A program made the translations under genes and the position numbers. A DNA stretch of 49,871 nucleotides, from assembly GCF_014647495.1 (NCBI RefSeq), contig NZ_BMPH01000019.1:1-49871 (forward strand), in the 5' to 3' direction. This DNA is from Glutamicibacter protophormiae. GTDB taxonomy: Bacteria; Actinomycetota; Actinomycetes; Actinomycetales; Micrococcaceae. This document shows positions 35,911 through 42,917 of the stretch, one piece after another. The notes under the pieces are model-generated. The model searched no databases, was not told where the DNA came from, and was given only the letters and a program-made list of their open reading frames with translations. The number at the start of each line of letters is the position of its first letter. Position 1 is the first letter of the stretch.

Positions 35911-37839
35911 ATGACCACACTTCGTTCCCACACCGTCACCCATGGCCGCAATATGGCAGGCGCCCGCGCCCTGTTCCGCGCGGCCGGCGTCAACGGCGCA
36001 GATCTGGGCCGCAAGCCGATCATCGCCGTGGCCAACAGCTTCACCGAATTCGTGCCGGGCCACACCCACCTGCAGCCAGTGGGCCGCATCGTCTCCGATG
36101 CGATCACCGCCGCCGGCGGCATCCCGCGCGAGTTCAACACCATCGCGGTGGACGACGGCATCGCCATGGGCCACGGCGGCATGCTGTACTCGCTCCCATC
36201 GCGCGATTTGATCGCCGACTCGGTCGAATACATGGTCAACGCCCACTGCGCCGACGCGCTGATCTGCATCTCCAATTGCGACAAGATCACCCCCGGCATG
36301 CTGATGGCCGCGCTGCGCCTGAACATCCCGACCGTGTTCGTCTCCGGCGGCCCGATGGAATCCGGCCGCGCCACCCTGGTGGACGGCACCGTGCGCACCC
36401 TGGACCTGGTCGACGCCATCTCCGAGGCAGTGAACGAAAACGTTTCCGACGCGGACCTGCTGCGCATCGAGGAGTCGGCCTGCCCGACCTGCGGTTCCTG
36501 CTCCGGCATGTTCACCGCGAACTCGATGAACTGCCTGACCGAGGCCATGGGCCTGTCGCTGCCGGGCAACGGCTCCACCCTGGCCACGCACACCGCGCGC
36601 AAGGACCTCTACGAGAACGCCGGCAAGCTGGTTGTGGAGATTTCCAACCGCTACTACGGCGAAGACGACGACTCCGTCCTGCCGCGCAACATCGCCACCC
36701 CGGCCGCCTTCGGCAACGCCATGGCGCTGGATATCGCCATGGGCGGCTCCACCAACACCATCCTGCACCTGCTGGCCGCCGCGATCGAGGCCGGCGTCGA
36801 ATTCGGCCTGGATGAGATCGACGAGGTCTCCCGCCGCGTGCCGTGCCTGGCCAAGGTGGCACCGAACTCGGCAGGTGCCGGCAAGATCTACTACATGGAG
36901 GACGTGCACCGCGCCGGCGGCATTCCCGCGATCCTCGGCGAGCTGCGCCGCGGCGGCCTGCTGGACGAAACCGTCCACACCGTGCACTCCAAGACCATGG
37001 GTGAATGGCTGGATGCCTGGGACATCCGCGGCGGCCATGCCGCTGAGGAATCGCTGGCCCTGTGGCACGCGGCCCCGGGCGGCGTCCGCTCCTCCACCGC
37101 ATTCTCCCAGTCCGCCCAGTGGGAGGACCTGGACACCGACTCCGCCGGCGGCTGCATCCGTTCGGTCGAGCACGCCTACTCCAAGGACGGCGGCCTGGCC
37201 GTGCTGCGCGGCAACATCGCCGTGGACGGCGCCGTGGTCAAGACCGCCGGCGTGGATCCCTCCATCTGGACCTTCACCGGCCCGGCAGTGGTCTGCGAGT
37301 CCCAGGACGAGGCCGTCGAAAAGATCCTCAACAAGCAGGTCAAGGCCGGCGACGTGGTCGTCATCCGCTATGAGGGCCCCAAGGGCGGCCCAGGCATGCA
37401 GGAAATGCTCTACCCGACCTCGTTCCTCAAGGGCCGCGGCCTGGGTAAGGAATGCGCACTCATCACCGACGGCCGCTTCTCCGGCGGCACCTCGGGCCTG
37501 TCCATCGGCCACGTCTCCCCCGAGGCGGCCTCCGGCGGACTCATCGCCCTGGTCGAGGACGGCGACTCGATCTCCATCGACATCCCGACCCGCGACCTGA
37601 CCCTGAACGTCGCCGACGAGGTCCTGGCCGAGCGCCGCGAACGCCTGCTGGCCACCACCGGCTACCGCCCGGCCAACCGCGAACGCGTCGTCTCCCCTGC
37701 GCTGCGCGCCTACGCCGCCATGGCCCTGTCTGCGGACAAGGGTGCAGTGCGCGACGTCGACCGCGTCGAGCGTGCCCTGCGCGAGGCCGATGAACGCGCC
37801 GCCGCGGCAGAACGCACGGCAGCAACCGCCAAGGCATAA
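35911..37839 (+). CDS. ilvD: Dihydroxy-acid dehydratase
   Basis: A 642-residue enzyme that dehydrates 2,3-dihydroxy-isovalerate and -methylvalerate to the 2-oxo acids of valine and isoleucine synthesis. Signatures: [12 protein letters not shown] near residue 41, [15 protein letters not shown] near 116 and [19 protein letters not shown] near 190, with the cysteines of the Fe-S cluster, and G-R-F-S-G-G-T-S-G near 520. Length fits the longer E. coli-like class rather than the 560-residue class. No other ilv gene is close, and a strong terminator follows immediately, so it is monocistronic. Confidence 0.96.
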
Positions 37840-37857
37840 CCGCACTGACAGCCGAGA

Positions 37858-37897
37858 AGGGCCCGGAGCATCCGATCTGGATGCTCCGGGCCCTTTG
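37858..37897 (+). terminator. Rho-independent terminator of ilvD
   Basis: A perfect 16-bp stem (37858-37873 with 37879-37894) closing a five-base GATCT loop, starting 19 bases after the ilvD stop and followed by TTT. The strongest hairpin in this part of the window. Confidence 0.85.
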
Positions 37898-37957
37898 CGC
37901 CTCTGCGACCTGCGGCGATCAACGCCCGTCAGAGCACGCTGCCCCAGAAACGACAAA

Positions 37958-37993
37958 GGGCCTGAGACCCATTAATTCATGAGTCCCAGGCCC
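37958..37993 (-). terminator. Second hairpin, likely terminator
   Basis: GGGCCTGAGAC (37958-37968) with GTCCCAGGCCC (37983-37993), one mismatch. Read on the minus strand it is followed by CTTTGTCGTTT, which suits termination of leftward transcription. Confidence 0.45.
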
Positions 37994-38669
37994 GCCGAGA
38001 TACTTTCCCACCCCCAAATGAGCATGCATCCAACAAGACGAAATCTCTCTCCGCGCACCCCCAAGTGCAATTCCTGAACTACGCCATCCCCATGGTATGA
38101 GTTCGTTGTGCGGCTGATTTCGTCTTTCAGCAGTTAAGAGTGATTCACCTCCGCTTCGTGACGCGGTTTTCTAAAAATAATTTGTCGCCGGGAAAGATTC
38201 CGGGCCGATTTCCGATAAAAATGCATGTCAGAGTGGTATTGCGGATCGAAGATCCTTTCGTGATTCGATCAAAAATAACTCTGACGAGGGTCCAGAACTT
38301 GACGAATTCTTGAGCTTCATCATTCGGACAGCTCTCCTGAAAGTCGTTGAGCGAAGCCACCTGAACGCTTTCCACCAAGGCCTATGGTTCCATGGTCTTC
38401 CCATGGCAGTGGTTCACGGATTCATACAACTTCGCCCGACAAGAATTTAAGAACGGATGCCGCCAAGTTCATGACGGTGATGTCGAGACACAGTCGGGCC
38501 CCTCTCTGGGAGGCATCTATTCACACTTAGGTCATTGAGCGTTCCAGAGCGAACAACCCTTTCAACGCCTCGATTTTGAATCGAACTTGATCCCTATCGA
38601 ACACCACTAAGATATCCAGAACTCGTAGATACTTACCCATACTGTCGGAAAGCGGAGGACAATTAAGTT
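37994..38669. other. Gene-free stretch before DUF222-HNH gene
   Basis: 676 bases without a convincing gene. A 77-codon minus-strand frame at 38145-38378 has ordinary composition but no recognisable family and no evident ribosome binding site, so it is not called. The G+C is lower than in ilvD. The promoter of the HNH gene should lie near the right end. Confidence 0.5.
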
Positions 38670-40253
38670 ATGGGTATCAGAGATATTTTCGAGAATGACG
38701 ACGACTCCCACCGCCTACCGATTGAAGCACCGGGGCTGAGGGACACTGTCCAAACGACAGGTACGTGGGGCGCGGCTATTCAGCGTCAGAAGTACTTTAC
38801 CGGTCCCTTGGAAGTGCTAACCGAACTCAATAAGCAGATGCCTGCCCAGGACCTGGCCGTCGGCCTCGACCAACTGGCCATGCTCAGCCGGCTCCGCAGC
38901 ATGCTTGATGCCAGCGAGGCAGTCCTCATGGCGGACACCTACGAACTCTTCGCGCGAGGCGTCGCTCTCCAATCCAGCGGCGACAACCGCATTCAAGCGG
39001 ATGGCGAACCTACCCCTGAACAACTTGAGCAAATGGGCGTCTCCGCCGATGACATTCTGGCGAACTTGTCTGCAGGCTACTATCGCGTTACCCCACACGA
39101 CCAAGACGTTGCGCGCTCCTCGTTCATTGCCGAAGCATCCATCGCGATGAGAGACACTGACAATCACATTTCCAATAAACTCACCATGGCTGAAGGTTTG
39201 CGGCACCTATGCCATGAAACCTTGAATGCTCTGAGCGCCGGTGAAATTACGACTCAGACTGCACGCGAGATCATCAAGAATGCTCAAGACCTCGAAACTG
39301 AAGACGTGCACCGCATGGAGGAACTCCTGCTGCCATTTGCCAAACACGCCACCGACTCGGCTGTCCGGCAACGGGCACGTCGGCTTCACGAAAAGATGCA
39401 CCCCAAGCCAATCGACGAACGCCACAAAGATGCTAAAGAAACCCGGGATATGCGTTGGTGGATCGAGAAAGACGGCATAGCGGTCGCACAGCTTCGCGGC
39501 CCCGTGGAAGATATCATTTCAGTGGTAAACACCGTCGAGCATCATGTTGTTTCGAATGCTGATCCCGAAGACCCCCGAACACGCGGTCAATTACGATACG
39601 ACACACTGAGGGACGCTTTGCTGGACGGTTGGCCTGAGGGCGGCGGTAGCACTCTGAAAACCAAGGTGGCCGTAACGATTCCGGCGGTCGAGATGCTGGC
39701 AGACCCTCGAAAGGCATTGGCAGACCTCGAAGGATACGGTCCAATCCCGATTGGAACGGCTTTGAAACTGGCGGCGCACGCCCCATCGATGCTTCGATTG
39801 CTGACTGACCCGTGGACTGGGGCCGTTATCGACGTCGACCGCAAGAAGTACAGCCCACCGCAAGCTCTTCGAGACCTGCTGAGATTCCGGGACACGCAGT
39901 GCCAGTTCCCGGGATGCAACCGCTTGCCTGAGCGATCCGAAGTTGAACACATCGATGACTGGGCCAAAGGCGGCGGAACCAACCGCACCAACACCAAGCT
40001 TTGCTGCAAACGACACCAGATGTTCAAGCATGCTTTGGGCTGGAACTACACTTACCTCCCCGATGGCTCGGTCATGTGGCGCACTCCTCATGGGCAGACA
40101 TGCATCGAGATTCCAGGATCAGTGACGAGCGTTCAGAACTTCGATTTCAACGCAGATCGCGCCCCGCAACGTCTGGACGTCGAGCTCACAGACCGTGTAA
40201 GGAAAGTTCTGGGGTACGAATTCGAAGAACCGCCCGAATTAGATGCGAACTAG
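38670..40253 (+). CDS. DUF222 / HNH endonuclease-domain protein (13E12-repeat type)
   Basis: A 527-residue protein with the DUF222 domain (about residues 50-330, M-P-A-Q-D-L-A-V-G-L-D-Q-L near 52) and a C-terminal HNH nuclease: Y-S-P-P-Q-A-L-R-D-L-L-R-F-R-D, then C-Q-F-P-G-C near 412 and V-E-H-I-D-D-W-A-K-G-G-G-T-N-R-T-N-T-K-L-C-C-K-R-H-Q (histidine, asparagine and final histidine of HNH plus the zinc cysteines). Such proteins occur in many copies in actinobacterial genomes (the 13E12 repeat family of mycobacteria) and are suspected mobile or defence elements; function is unproven. Start ATG 38670 with GGAGG 11 bases upstream. Lower G+C than ilvD, as expected for accessory DNA. Confidence 0.88.
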   Translation: MGIRDIFENDDDSHRLPIEAPGLRDTVQTTGTWGAAIQRQKYFTGPLEVLTELNKQMPAQDLAVGLDQLAMLSRLRSMLDASEAVLMADTYELFARGVALQSSGDNRIQADGEPTPEQLEQMGVSADDILANLSAGYYRVTPHDQDVARSSFIAEASIAMRDTDNHISNKLTMAEGLRHLCHETLNALSAGEITTQTAREIIKNAQDLETEDVHRMEELLLPFAKHATDSAVRQRARRLHEKMHPKPIDERHKDAKETRDMRWWIEKDGIAVAQLRGPVEDIISVVNTVEHHVVSNADPEDPRTRGQLRYDTLRDALLDGWPEGGGSTLKTKVAVTIPAVEMLADPRKALADLEGYGPIPIGTALKLAAHAPSMLRLLTDPWTGAVIDVDRKKYSPPQALRDLLRFRDTQCQFPGCNRLPERSEVEHIDDWAKGGGTNRTNTKLCCKRHQMFKHALGWNYTYLPDGSVMWRTPHGQTCIEIPGSVTSVQNFDFNADRAPQRLDVELTDRVRKVLGYEFEEPPELDAN

Positions 40254-40407
40254 CTCTTGCGAGTTTCCAAAACGGGAGTGTTGCCCCATTCCACAGCCTC
40301 ATCGCGTTGAGCTTAGATATGGATTCAAGGTATAAAGCACCAGGTCAATCGACCTGTTCCAGTGGTTCGAATGCAGTTGTGCACCGCGAATAGTTCCTTG
40401 CCTCGCA

Positions 40408-40426
40408 TGAACGGATTATTGGTTCA
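40408..40426 (+). repeat. 19-bp motif copy 1 (TGAACGGATTATTGGTTCA)
   Basis: Perfect five-base arms TGAAC/GTTCA with nine bases between; core GATTATT. The sequence just right of it (ATGAACC) adds a further inverted TGAAC half-site. Confidence 0.6.
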
Positions 40427-40492
40427 ATGAACCGTGGCAGTTCGCCTACGGTTCCTGCATTTGCTCCGATCGAGTAAAAGCAACCTACCAAA

Positions 40493-40511
40493 TGAACAAA
40501 AATTCTGTTCG
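40493..40511 (+). repeat. 19-bp motif copy 2 (TGAACAAAAATTCTGTTCG)
   Basis: One arm mismatch (final G). Followed by TTTTCACC, which is also found after copy 5. Confidence 0.6.
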
Positions 40512-40649
40512 TTTTCACCGCGTAGTCAGCTGTAGCCGACTCTAGTCATTTGCCTCAACCCGCAGGTGTTCACCAATATCAGCACGTACAGCTCGTTGCT
40601 TTGAACGCGCCGTACGCAGCCTACCCTGATACCCCGGAAGGCACCGATG

Positions 40650-40668
40650 TGAACAATTATTCTGTTCA
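40650..40668 (+). repeat. 19-bp motif copy 3 (TGAACAATTATTCTGTTCA)
   Basis: Perfect six-base arms TGAACA/TGTTCA; core ATTATTC. Followed by CTTTCCGCC, similar to the flank of copies 2 and 5. Confidence 0.65.
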
Positions 40669-40814
40669 CTTTCCGCCATCATGCCCTCTGAATCTGAATT
40701 ATCCTCGTGTTCGGGTTGCATGGATTCATGAAAGATACGTCCGGAATGATGAGTTCCAGAAGTAAGTAGATGTACCGTGTCAATACAACTGCCTAACACC
40801 AGCGGATTGCAGCA

Positions 40815-40833
40815 TGAGCATTATTTTTGTTCA
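40815..40833 (+). repeat. 19-bp motif copy 4 (TGAGCATTATTTTTGTTCA)
   Basis: One mismatch in the left arm (TGAGC). The right flank is unrelated to that of the other copies. Confidence 0.55.
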
Positions 40834-41018
40834 TGGGCAGGACGGGGCTTCCGGATCGACAAGTGCCGGACGTTTACCTGAGCGTCTCGAATGAACGACG
40901 AATCATCAAGTTTGGTACGGGTTTCCGCGCCCACCCTGCGCCTCGCCTGCTACAGGTGCAACGAGGAACATCTGATATTCGAGAGTCACACCGGCCTGCG
41001 AAACGCGCCATCAGGAAC

Positions 41019-41037
41019 TGAACACATTTTCTGTTCA
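41019..41037 (+). repeat. 19-bp motif copy 5 (TGAACACATTTTCTGTTCA)
   Basis: Perfect six-base arms; core CATTTTC; followed by ATTTTCACC as with copy 2. Confidence 0.65.
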
Positions 41038-41359
41038 ATTTTCACCAACAGTTCGCCTGTGGCCCATGACGACTTCTCCCTGCATTCGAACCACCACGCC
41101 AAGATAGAAGCTTCTTGGCAGGTACGGGCAGACCGAGATGAACACCGTGAAAGTCGCACGCAAACCGAGATCAAATATTCACTGGCGCTCAATCGACGAT
41201 GAGTTTCATATGCCTCTGGCTCCTCGCGTTACGGCACCATGAAAAGTTTGACTCCCTGTCGAAACCCGCGGAATCGCAGGGATTCGGGGCTATTGATCCA
41301 GTCCGAGAAAGCAATTGTGGATTGCCATCTTGACAGTCCATGAGATTGAGCGCACACTG

Positions 41360-41371
41360 ATCGTATACGAT
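41360..41371. promoter_or_regulatory. Perfect palindrome ATCGTATACGAT, candidate GntR operator
   Basis: A 12-bp perfect palindrome with a GTATAC centre, 43 bases before the hpa operon start. Two ATGTACGA repeats follow at about 41375-41395. FCD-type GntR regulators often bind GTATAC-centred palindromes, and such a regulator is the second gene of this operon. Confidence 0.55.
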
Positions 41372-41414
41372 TTGATGTACGAGATCATGTACGACGAAAG
41401 TGGGCAATTCACCG

Positions 41415-42917
41415 ATGAGCACTCCGATTCCGGTCACCGAGGAAACCTTCAGCCAGGCAGGTAAGGTCCTGGCCGTACACCTGAGCTACTCTTCGCGTGC
41501 AGCGCAGCGCGGTCGCACCCCGAAGTTCCCAAGCTACTTCATGAAGGCTTCGAGCTCCCTGGCAGCCACCAACGGCACCGTCGAGCGCCCGGCCGGCACT
41601 GAGCTGCTGGCTTTCGAAGGCGAGATCGCACTGATCATCGGCAAGGCAGCCCGCCGCGTTTCCGTCGAGGATGCCTGGGGCTACGTCGGCTCCATCACCG
41701 CATCGAACGACCTGGGCGTGCACGACATGAAGTACGCCGACAAGGGCTCGAACATCCGCTCGAAGTCCGGCGACGGCTACACCCCACTGGGCCCAGTCGC
41801 ACTGGATGCCGCCACCGTCGACCCGGCCAAGCTGCGTGTGCAGACCTGGGTCAACGGCGAGATCGCCCAGGACGCAGACACCTCCGAGCTGCTGTTCTCC
41901 TTCGCGCAGATTGTCGCCGACCTGTCCCAGCAGATGACGCTGCTGCCGGGCGACATCATCCTGACCGGCACCCCTGCCGGCTCCACCGTTTTCTTCCCGG
42001 GCGACGTCGTCGAGGTCGAGGTCACCGATCTGGTCTCCGGCGCCACCACCGGCAAGCTGAAGACCACCGCCGTTGAGGGCACCGCGACCTTCGGCGACTT
42101 CGGCAACCAGCCAAAGGTCACCGAGAAGGACAAGGAAGACGCCTACGGCGACCGCGAGTCCGCCGGCCTGGCCCCGAAGCTGACCGGCAAGGACGTGCTG
42201 ACCGACGCCATCCGCGAGCAGCTGGCCTCCGTCGCGACCGCCACCCTGTCCGGCACCATGCGCAAGCACGGCATGAACAACGTGAACATCGAAGTTTCCG
42301 GCGCCACCAAGGGCATGCAGCGCGTGATCGGCACCGCCGCCACCCTGCGCTACATCCCGAACCGCGAGGACCTCTTCAAGGCCCACGGCGGCGGCTACAA
42401 CATGCAGAAGCAGGCCATCGACGCGGTCAAGGACGGCGAAATCCTGGTCATGGAGGCCCGCGGCGAGACCGGTTCGGCCACCCTGGGCGACATCCTGGCC
42501 CTGCGTTCGCAGCAGCTGGGCGCGGCGGCCATCATCTCCGACGGCGGCGTGCGCGACCTGGATGCCGTGAGCAACCTGGAGATCCCGGTCTTCCACAACG
42601 GACCGCACCCGGCAGTGCTCGGCCGCAAGCATGTGGCCTGGGACCGCGACATCACCGTGGCCTGCGGCGGCGTTTCGGTGCAGCCCGGCGACGTGATCGT
42701 GGCCGACTCCGATGGCATCGTGGTGATCCCGCCGGCAATGGTCGAGCAGATCGCCGCCGAGGCCGCAGCCACCGAGGAGAACGACGAGTTCATCTTCGCC
42801 ATGGTCAAGCGCGGCCACGGCATCGAGGGCCTGTTCCCGATGAACGCCGAATGGAAAACCAAGTTCAACGCCTGGAAGGACGCAGGCAGCCCGGACCTGG
42901 ACTCATGGGCGCTGTAA
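41415..42917 (+). CDS. Fumarylacetoacetate hydrolase (HpaG-like) fused to RraA-like domain
   Basis: A 500-residue two-domain enzyme. Residues about 15-225 are a FAH-type domain: G-K-V-L-A-V-H-L-S-Y, metal ligands in F-E-G-E-I-A-L and N-D-L-G-V-H-D, a lysine-rich G-S-N-I-R-S-K-S-G-D-G-Y-T-P-L-G-P, then G-D-I-I-L-T-G-T-P-A-G. Residues about 255-470 are an RraA/HMG-aldolase-like domain with G-D-I-L-A-L-R-S and D-G-G-V-R-D-L-D, the residues that bind divalent metal and pyruvate in that aldolase group. In the homoprotocatechuate pathway HpaG decarboxylates and isomerises the ring-cleavage tricarboxylate; the second domain may do the decarboxylation or the pyruvate-releasing aldol step. ATG 41415 is preferred; GTG 41400 adds five residues. 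Confidence 0.85.
   Translation: MSTPIPVTEETFSQAGKVLAVHLSYSSRAAQRGRTPKFPSYFMKASSSLAATNGTVERPAGTELLAFEGEIALIIGKAARRVSVEDAWGYVGSITASNDLGVHDMKYADKGSNIRSKSGDGYTPLGPVALDAATVDPAKLRVQTWVNGEIAQDADTSELLFSFAQIVADLSQQMTLLPGDIILTGTPAGSTVFFPGDVVEVEVTDLVSGATTGKLKTTAVEGTATFGDFGNQPKVTEKDKEDAYGDRESAGLAPKLTGKDVLTDAIREQLASVATATLSGTMRKHGMNNVNIEVSGATKGMQRVIGTAATLRYIPNREDLFKAHGGGYNMQKQAIDAVKDGEILVMEARGETGSATLGDILALRSQQLGAAAIISDGGVRDLDAVSNLEIPVFHNGPHPAVLGRKHVAWDRDITVACGGVSVQPGDVIVADSDGIVVIPPAMVEQIAAEAAATEENDEFIFAMVKRGHGIEGLFPMNAEWKTKFNAWKDAGSPDLDSWAL

Follow-up and report, generated by a model that had tools for sequence, protein, structure and literature searches.

A palindrome array 3′ of a DUF222-HNH gene in Glutamicibacter as the candidate binding-site cluster of a ParB/Noc-like protein

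A 49,871-nucleotide stretch of the Glutamicibacter protophormiae genome (contig NZ_BMPH01000019.1; hereafter the window) contains five similar palindromes downstream of a gene for a DUF222-HNH protein. A preliminary description had presented them as directed copies of TGAAC-N9-GTTCA; the observation is confirmed and enlarged, because the window array is one case of a wider arrangement in Glutamicibacter, a genus of soil bacteria, in which palindrome arrays often stand 3′ of DUF222-HNH genes, are conserved between species and are spelled more by gene lineage than by genome. We consider it likely that the protein encoded directly upstream is ParB/Noc-like and that the array is its cognate cluster of binding sites, where it would nucleate.

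Five conserved palindromes between two genes

The array lies between the stop codon of the DUF222-HNH gene (40253) and a gene for fumarylacetoacetate hydrolase that begins at 41400 or 41415. Its features are as follows.

40254..41399, + strand: stretch without a called gene, containing the array (gene caller and site clustering)
40408..40426, + strand: site 1, TGAACGGATTATTGGTTCA; exact TGAAC-N9-GTTCA; two changes in G. soli (genome G003)
40493..40511, + strand: site 2, TGAACAAAAATTCTGTTCG; one mismatch; one change in G. soli, whose right arm is perfect
40650..40668, + strand: site 3, TGAACAATTATTCTGTTCA; exact; 21-mer 40649-40669 reads GTGA..TCAC; identical in G. soli
40815..40833, + strand: site 4, TGAGCATTATTTTTGTTCA; one mismatch; identical in G. 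soli
41019..41037, + strand: site 5, TGAACACATTTTCTGTTCA; exact; identical in G. soli

The coordinates, strand and start-to-start spacings (85, 157, 165 and 204) reported earlier are correct, with three exact copies (40408, 40650 and 41019) and two carrying one mismatch. The region is gene-free as claimed, in that the gene caller lists nothing in 40254-41399, though mechanical open reading frames occur inside it. When up to two mismatches are allowed, TGAAC-N9-GTTCA is not over-represented in the window (17 occurrences against 16.3 expected), and the signal is therefore the clustering of near-perfect copies: five like palindromes fall within 900 bp, and 30 shuffles give at most two.

Two further properties had been ascribed to the array. 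The flank common to three copies is real, forming a 32-nucleotide (nt) direct-repeat family of the copies at 40493, 40650 and 41019, but it is weak (69-78% identity). The fixed orientation is true of the window array but not general, since the A run lies on the opposite side in some sites of the arrays at loci L067, L086 and L098. A perfect 15-bp inverted repeat, GTGGTTCGAATGCAG, brackets the window array (40362-40376 / 41080-41094); it was dropped as a candidate pair of element ends, being missing from the G. soli orthologue.

For comparison with a relative, we took genome G003 as Glutamicibacter soli NHPC-3. All five window sites occur there at matching positions, so the motif is not absent from this locus in all relatives. 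In a comparison of G. soli with the genome that contains the window (G000, 3.83 Mb), 92/95 site columns of the stretch with the window array agree, against 848/1044 other columns there (Fisher p = 1e-5). The same holds for two other arrays of G000, on contig C7 (51/57 site columns against 529/758 elsewhere) and contig C5 (71/75 against 480/790). The sites are thus constrained and the spacers drift, which makes the earlier suggestion, that the copies are relics of a duplicated small element, a poor fit.

Arrays follow many genes of one DUF222-HNH subfamily and vary in spelling with lineage

A Pfam PF02720 search of 18 congeners, with a phmmer sort of 57 fetched genes, yielded a close subfamily of 42 members, of which L073 is truncated at the end of its contig, and 15 distant paralogues. 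Array-type sites are 21-bp palindromes with an AT core (GTGA-nnn-W7-nnn-TCAC). They were counted from the stop codon to the next called gene, over at most 900 nt, at the 41 complete subfamily genes; at the threshold used, two of the five sites in the window escape the count. Array-type sites follow 25 of the 41 genes (two or more at 21 loci, one at 4). These 25 loci hold 64 sites in 15.6 kb, compared with 1 site in 118.8 kb of control sequence (window 1-38000, the 13 loci L100-L112, and L061-L062) and 1 site in total across the 400-nt upstream flanks of all 41 genes. The first site lies 21-33 nt past the stop codon in 18/25, the exceptions including L072 (77) and the window (154), and further copies reach about 770 nt downstream.

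The second subfamily gene of G000, on contig C7, is followed by three sites, and G. soli has arrays after both orthologues. Four and five copies follow a related DUF222-HNH gene in G006 and G008, respectively. In several lineages the same neighbours are kept in different species, and G000 lacks both gene and sites at the place where G006 and six other genomes have a lineage-C gene plus sites.

Most sites keep GTGA...TCAC on the outside and a 7-base A/T core, and differ in the three inner bases, which read AAC (window, G008 and G006), ATC (the C7 loci of G000 and G. soli, where the outer bases are CTGA...TCAG), ACA, ACG, ACT or AGT. We compared the six inner positions of one representative site per locus, with lineages assigned by us from protein similarity and neighbours. 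The mean number of differences is 1.5 for loci of the same lineage in different genomes (49 pairs), 3.8 for loci of different lineages in different genomes (241 pairs) and 2.8 for two loci that share a genome (10 pairs, range 1-5); label permutation reached the within-lineage value in 0/5000 trials. The inner bases therefore track gene lineage more than genome, which argues against one host regulator reading all arrays. An exact GTGAC-N2-W7-N2-GTCAC pattern has 12 matches across the 18 genomes (control, 0), and each of these adjoins a subfamily gene, with adjacency in G001 judged from the DUF222 position. A looser pattern occurs at 31 places (control, 0), 22 of them beside a subfamily gene and 9 not; the genomes without any match to it, G007 and G009, have only array-less subfamily genes.

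The 15 distant congeneric paralogues yielded no AT-cored 3′ array. One of them, L105, is followed by seven copies of a GC-rich 16-bp tandem repeat, which is something different. Likewise, no convincing array was found beside DUF222 genes at 35 loci of other genera or bins; L169 (three against two) and L173 (two against one) exceed 20 shuffles by one copy, and these very GC-rich loci were not counted.

A predicted ParB-type DNA-binding domain and an altered HNH motif

The protein encoded upstream of the window array comprises the following parts.

38670..40253, + strand: DUF222-HNH gene, 527 amino acids; Pfam PF02720, E 5.7e-14, residues 158-408
39102..39404, + strand: predicted ParB/Noc-type helix-turn-helix DNA-binding domain, residues 145-245
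39882..40046, + strand: HNH-like segment with Gln replacing the third catalytic His, residues 405-459

The PF02720 match scores 52.6 bits, above the curated cut-off of 24.4. The helix-turn-helix part was modelled confidently (pLDDT 87), and the best structural matches to the predicted domain are all ParB-superfamily DNA-binding domains; the prediction thus supports a ParB-type helix-turn-helix fold for this protein. When aligned with ParB by hhalign, helix-turn-helix was placed on helix-turn-helix in a non-significant match (probability 0.4%, E 0.14), so sequence comparison did not show homology. A Pfam scan to E 5 found no ParBc domain, and the protein contains no GERR or GxRR string, so that the GERRxRA motif described for ParB-type proteins (in passages of PMC7333895) is absent. 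Because the defining ParBc domain was tested for and not found, we describe the arrangement as a ParB/Noc-like protein with an array in cis and do not file it as a ParB family member. ParA was not among the five scanned neighbours of the gene, and no genome-wide search for a dedicated ParA partner was made.

The HNH-like segment shows similarity to HNH domains, with a PF01844 match (E 0.35) below the cut-off. Of 42 aligned subfamily proteins, 41 cover the position of the third HNH histidine, and every one of these has Gln there (HQ); by our reading, the 15 distant congeneric paralogues have HH in 9 cases and Asn in 6. An IscB identity was rejected, as the match of one relative (E 0.034) lies far below its cut-off. 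Among three proteins scanned, PADLOC gave no match and NCBIfam nothing useful. These results bear on the earlier suggestion of a target array of the neighbouring DUF222-HNH nuclease. It is the best supported of the three meanings proposed, given sites 3′ of the subfamily genes and lineage-dependent spelling, but a ParB/Noc-like binder is likelier than a cutting nuclease, because the HNH motif is without its third His and the other half of the protein has a predicted ParB-type DNA-binding fold.

Four residues within and close to the helix-turn-helix are reported to determine the specificities of ParB and Noc (in passages of PMC7383237). In the hhalign register, DUF222 residue 169 corresponds to ParB N178, a DNA-contacting residue, and the residue in column 169 differs between motif classes (rank 14 of 427). 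The protein at L055, the one member whose motif is changed inside its clade, has H where its ten relatives have K, and carries many further unique changes. The case for column 169 as a specificity residue is suggestive only.

Candidate function, alternatives and significance

The favoured explanation would work as follows. The DUF222-HNH protein would bind palindromic sites of about 21 bp through its predicted ParB/Noc-type helix-turn-helix, probably as a dimer. The inner nnn of GTGA-nnn-(7 A/T)-nnn-TCAC would set specificity and, as it differs between paralogous loci, would make those loci orthogonal. Several spaced copies beside the gene could then form a nucleation centre, in the way that SopB nucleates at sopC, and ParB and Noc at clusters of parS and NBS. 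Protein loaded at the array may build a local nucleoprotein complex, with bridging, silencing, chromosome organisation or gene control as conceivable roles, and the approximately 20 further sites in the genomes of the window's species and G. soli are possible secondary anchoring or regulatory sites.

Each of the closest known systems differs from this arrangement. In the F plasmid SopB-sopC system (ParB-F/parS-F), sopC consists of twelve 43-bp repeats holding ten 16-bp inverted repeats (as described in passages of PMC6238139). The Glutamicibacter arrays are chromosomal, with 21-bp sites that have an AT-rich core and, in the window, irregular spacing (85-204 bp); ParA is not among the annotated neighbours, no ParB CTPase domain was found in the DUF222-HNH protein, and an HNH-like domain is attached. 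Compared with Noc-NBS and ParB-parS, the protein is without ParBc domain or GERRxRA motif, its sequence homology is not significant, and the sites differ in length and layout. KorB and VirB are plasmid-borne regulators not known to carry HNH, and their sites differ. Like other DUF222-HNH (13E12, REP13E12) proteins, the window protein is a PF02720 member with a C-terminal HNH-like part; it differs in having HNQ in place of HNH, and in its AT-cored 3′ array, of a kind found at neither the 15 distant congeneric paralogues nor, convincingly, the 35 loci of other genera or bins. Literature searches on DUF222, 13E12, ParB-like HNH proteins and Glutamicibacter palindromes listed no record with a title or displayed abstract on such arrays; PMC10123090 matches through DUF2220 only.

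Several points do not fit, or qualify, the reading as a cognate binding-site cluster. Sixteen of the 41 subfamily genes are without an array. Directly downstream of these 16 genes lies the signal recognition particle (SRP) RNA, confirmed by Rfam in the three tested; the C7 genes of G000 and G. soli adjoin SRP RNA yet have arrays. The 16 loci hold 5 sites in 9.9 kb, at 4/16 loci; one touches the stop codon and most others represent a conserved match within the adjacent gene, which is tRNA-synthetase-like, and therefore no array was counted, although mechanically one locus, L064, has two sites. The 25/16 split was drawn after the data were seen. Linked DNA has common ancestry, so lineage spelling alone is no proof of recognition. 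Most genome-wide sites in G000 and G. soli lie far from DUF222 genes. Finally, in G001 and G010, paired GTGAACGAAAATTTC[A/G]TTCAC-like sites stand about 139 and 360 nt after a transporter-like gene (L058 4959, 5180; L059 4962, 5182), with no DUF222 gene beside them in the fetched stretch.

An alternative that we consider unlikely is that the sites are operators of a separate transcription factor, which would regulate many places besides the DUF222-HNH neighbourhood; the genome-wide sites of G000 and G. soli speak for it. In G000 the motif is enriched, and so not at random frequency: TGAAC-N9-GTTCA (≤1 mismatch) occurs 94 times against 38 for a reversed control, and an AT-rich core version (≤3 mismatches) 33 times against 0-1, all five window sites included. 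The TGATC spelling and mixed TGAAC/GATCA sites belong to the same site set. One form, TGAWCRAAWWWTTYGWTCA (≤1 mismatch), occurs at 21 places in G000, the five window sites not among them, and at 20 in G. soli; of the remaining congeners, twelve have between 1 and 5 and four have none; none occur in 20 genomes of other genera, and the reversed control is zero in all 38 genomes. In G000, 15 of the 21 places are intergenic by our gene caller (p = 4e-10, on an assumed, not measured, intergenic share of 12%). Some sites precede genes in possible promoter regions (truB, DJ-1/PfpI and upstream of alkA), and in two species a GTGAC-type site precedes the DUF222-HNH gene (at L071, 215 nt before the frame; G001:C11:1412), which would suit autoregulation. 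Against this alternative, the exact GTGAC-type sites occur only beside subfamily genes. A plain operator array for one host regulator, as had been proposed, is moreover a poor fit, because genomes with two arrays mostly hold two spellings and the arrays come after the gene.

Further occurrences of the motif are diverse. A four-site array (L026 6792-7077; G000:C5:31791-32076) lies 155 nt upstream of an AlkA_N-domain (alkA) gene and 3′ of a short-chain dehydrogenase gene; it is conserved in G. soli, with no DUF222 gene in the fetched region. A further one falls within a gene for an O6-methylguanine methyltransferase, which follows an ECF sigma gene (L039 724). A link of the sites to DNA alkylation repair, from these two places, is possible. 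Copies also occur in the coding sequence of a tRNA-synthetase-like gene (L030 7452), kept in several congeners; in that of alpha-mannosidase-like paralogues, by our reading of the translation (L032 11474, 13860); and 15 nt before an IS110-family transposase gene (L038 6437). Elsewhere the motif is the centre of long, perfect or near-perfect intergenic hairpins (L023 6857, L024 7469 and L031 6593; G. soli counterparts L043, L042 and L053). In G. uratoxydans the orthologue of one such hairpin is TGAACGAAAAAACGTTCA (N8), and other congeners have different hairpins or none. A G. nicotianae site was rejected as a relic, being a long hairpin instead, without lineage-F synteny.

Slightly less probable still is that the repeats act as RNA, the 3′ untranslated region of the DUF222-HNH mRNA folding there into hairpins or terminators. 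The short distance from stop codon to first palindrome at 18/25 loci would suit this, as would the long terminator-like hairpins, the G. nicotianae match among them. However, hybrid sites with mismatched arms recur in G000, orientation is not fixed across arrays and copies extend far downstream of the stop codon. Rfam gave no match at gathering scores in window 37500-42000, and a tRNA search of the window was also empty. A candidate second hairpin after the first site looked compensated by eye, but its covariation counts did not rise above shuffles (11 of the 25 array loci aligned). It is highly improbable that the array serves the HNH nuclease as a cleavage target or is left over from a mobile or homing element of that nuclease: the protein has an HNH-like part and DUF222-HNH genes are described as repeated elements in mycobacteria (REP13E12; in passages of PMC10589994), but the third His is replaced in every subfamily protein covering the position, several lineages keep their neighbours across species, and the sites next to the gene stay intact and change less than the spacers.

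DUF222 (13E12) proteins occur commonly among actinobacteria, mycobacteria included. PF02720 matches occur in 18/18 congeners and 15/20 genomes of other genera, and Pfam still lists DUF222 as a domain of unknown function. More tentatively than for the window array itself, we suggest that DUF222 proteins may be ParB-fold DNA binders, and that Glutamicibacter may hold a series of protein/site pairs orthogonal to one another, each with a centromere-like array directly 3′, built on a nuclease-like protein with an altered HNH motif; in one species group, the sites would be spread over the chromosome like Noc sites. A predicted ParB-type domain together with candidate cognate sites poses a concrete, cheap question: does the protein bind its own array? 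The paralogue series with diverged sites would offer a natural experiment on the divergence of DNA-binding specificity, comparable to that of ParB and Noc.
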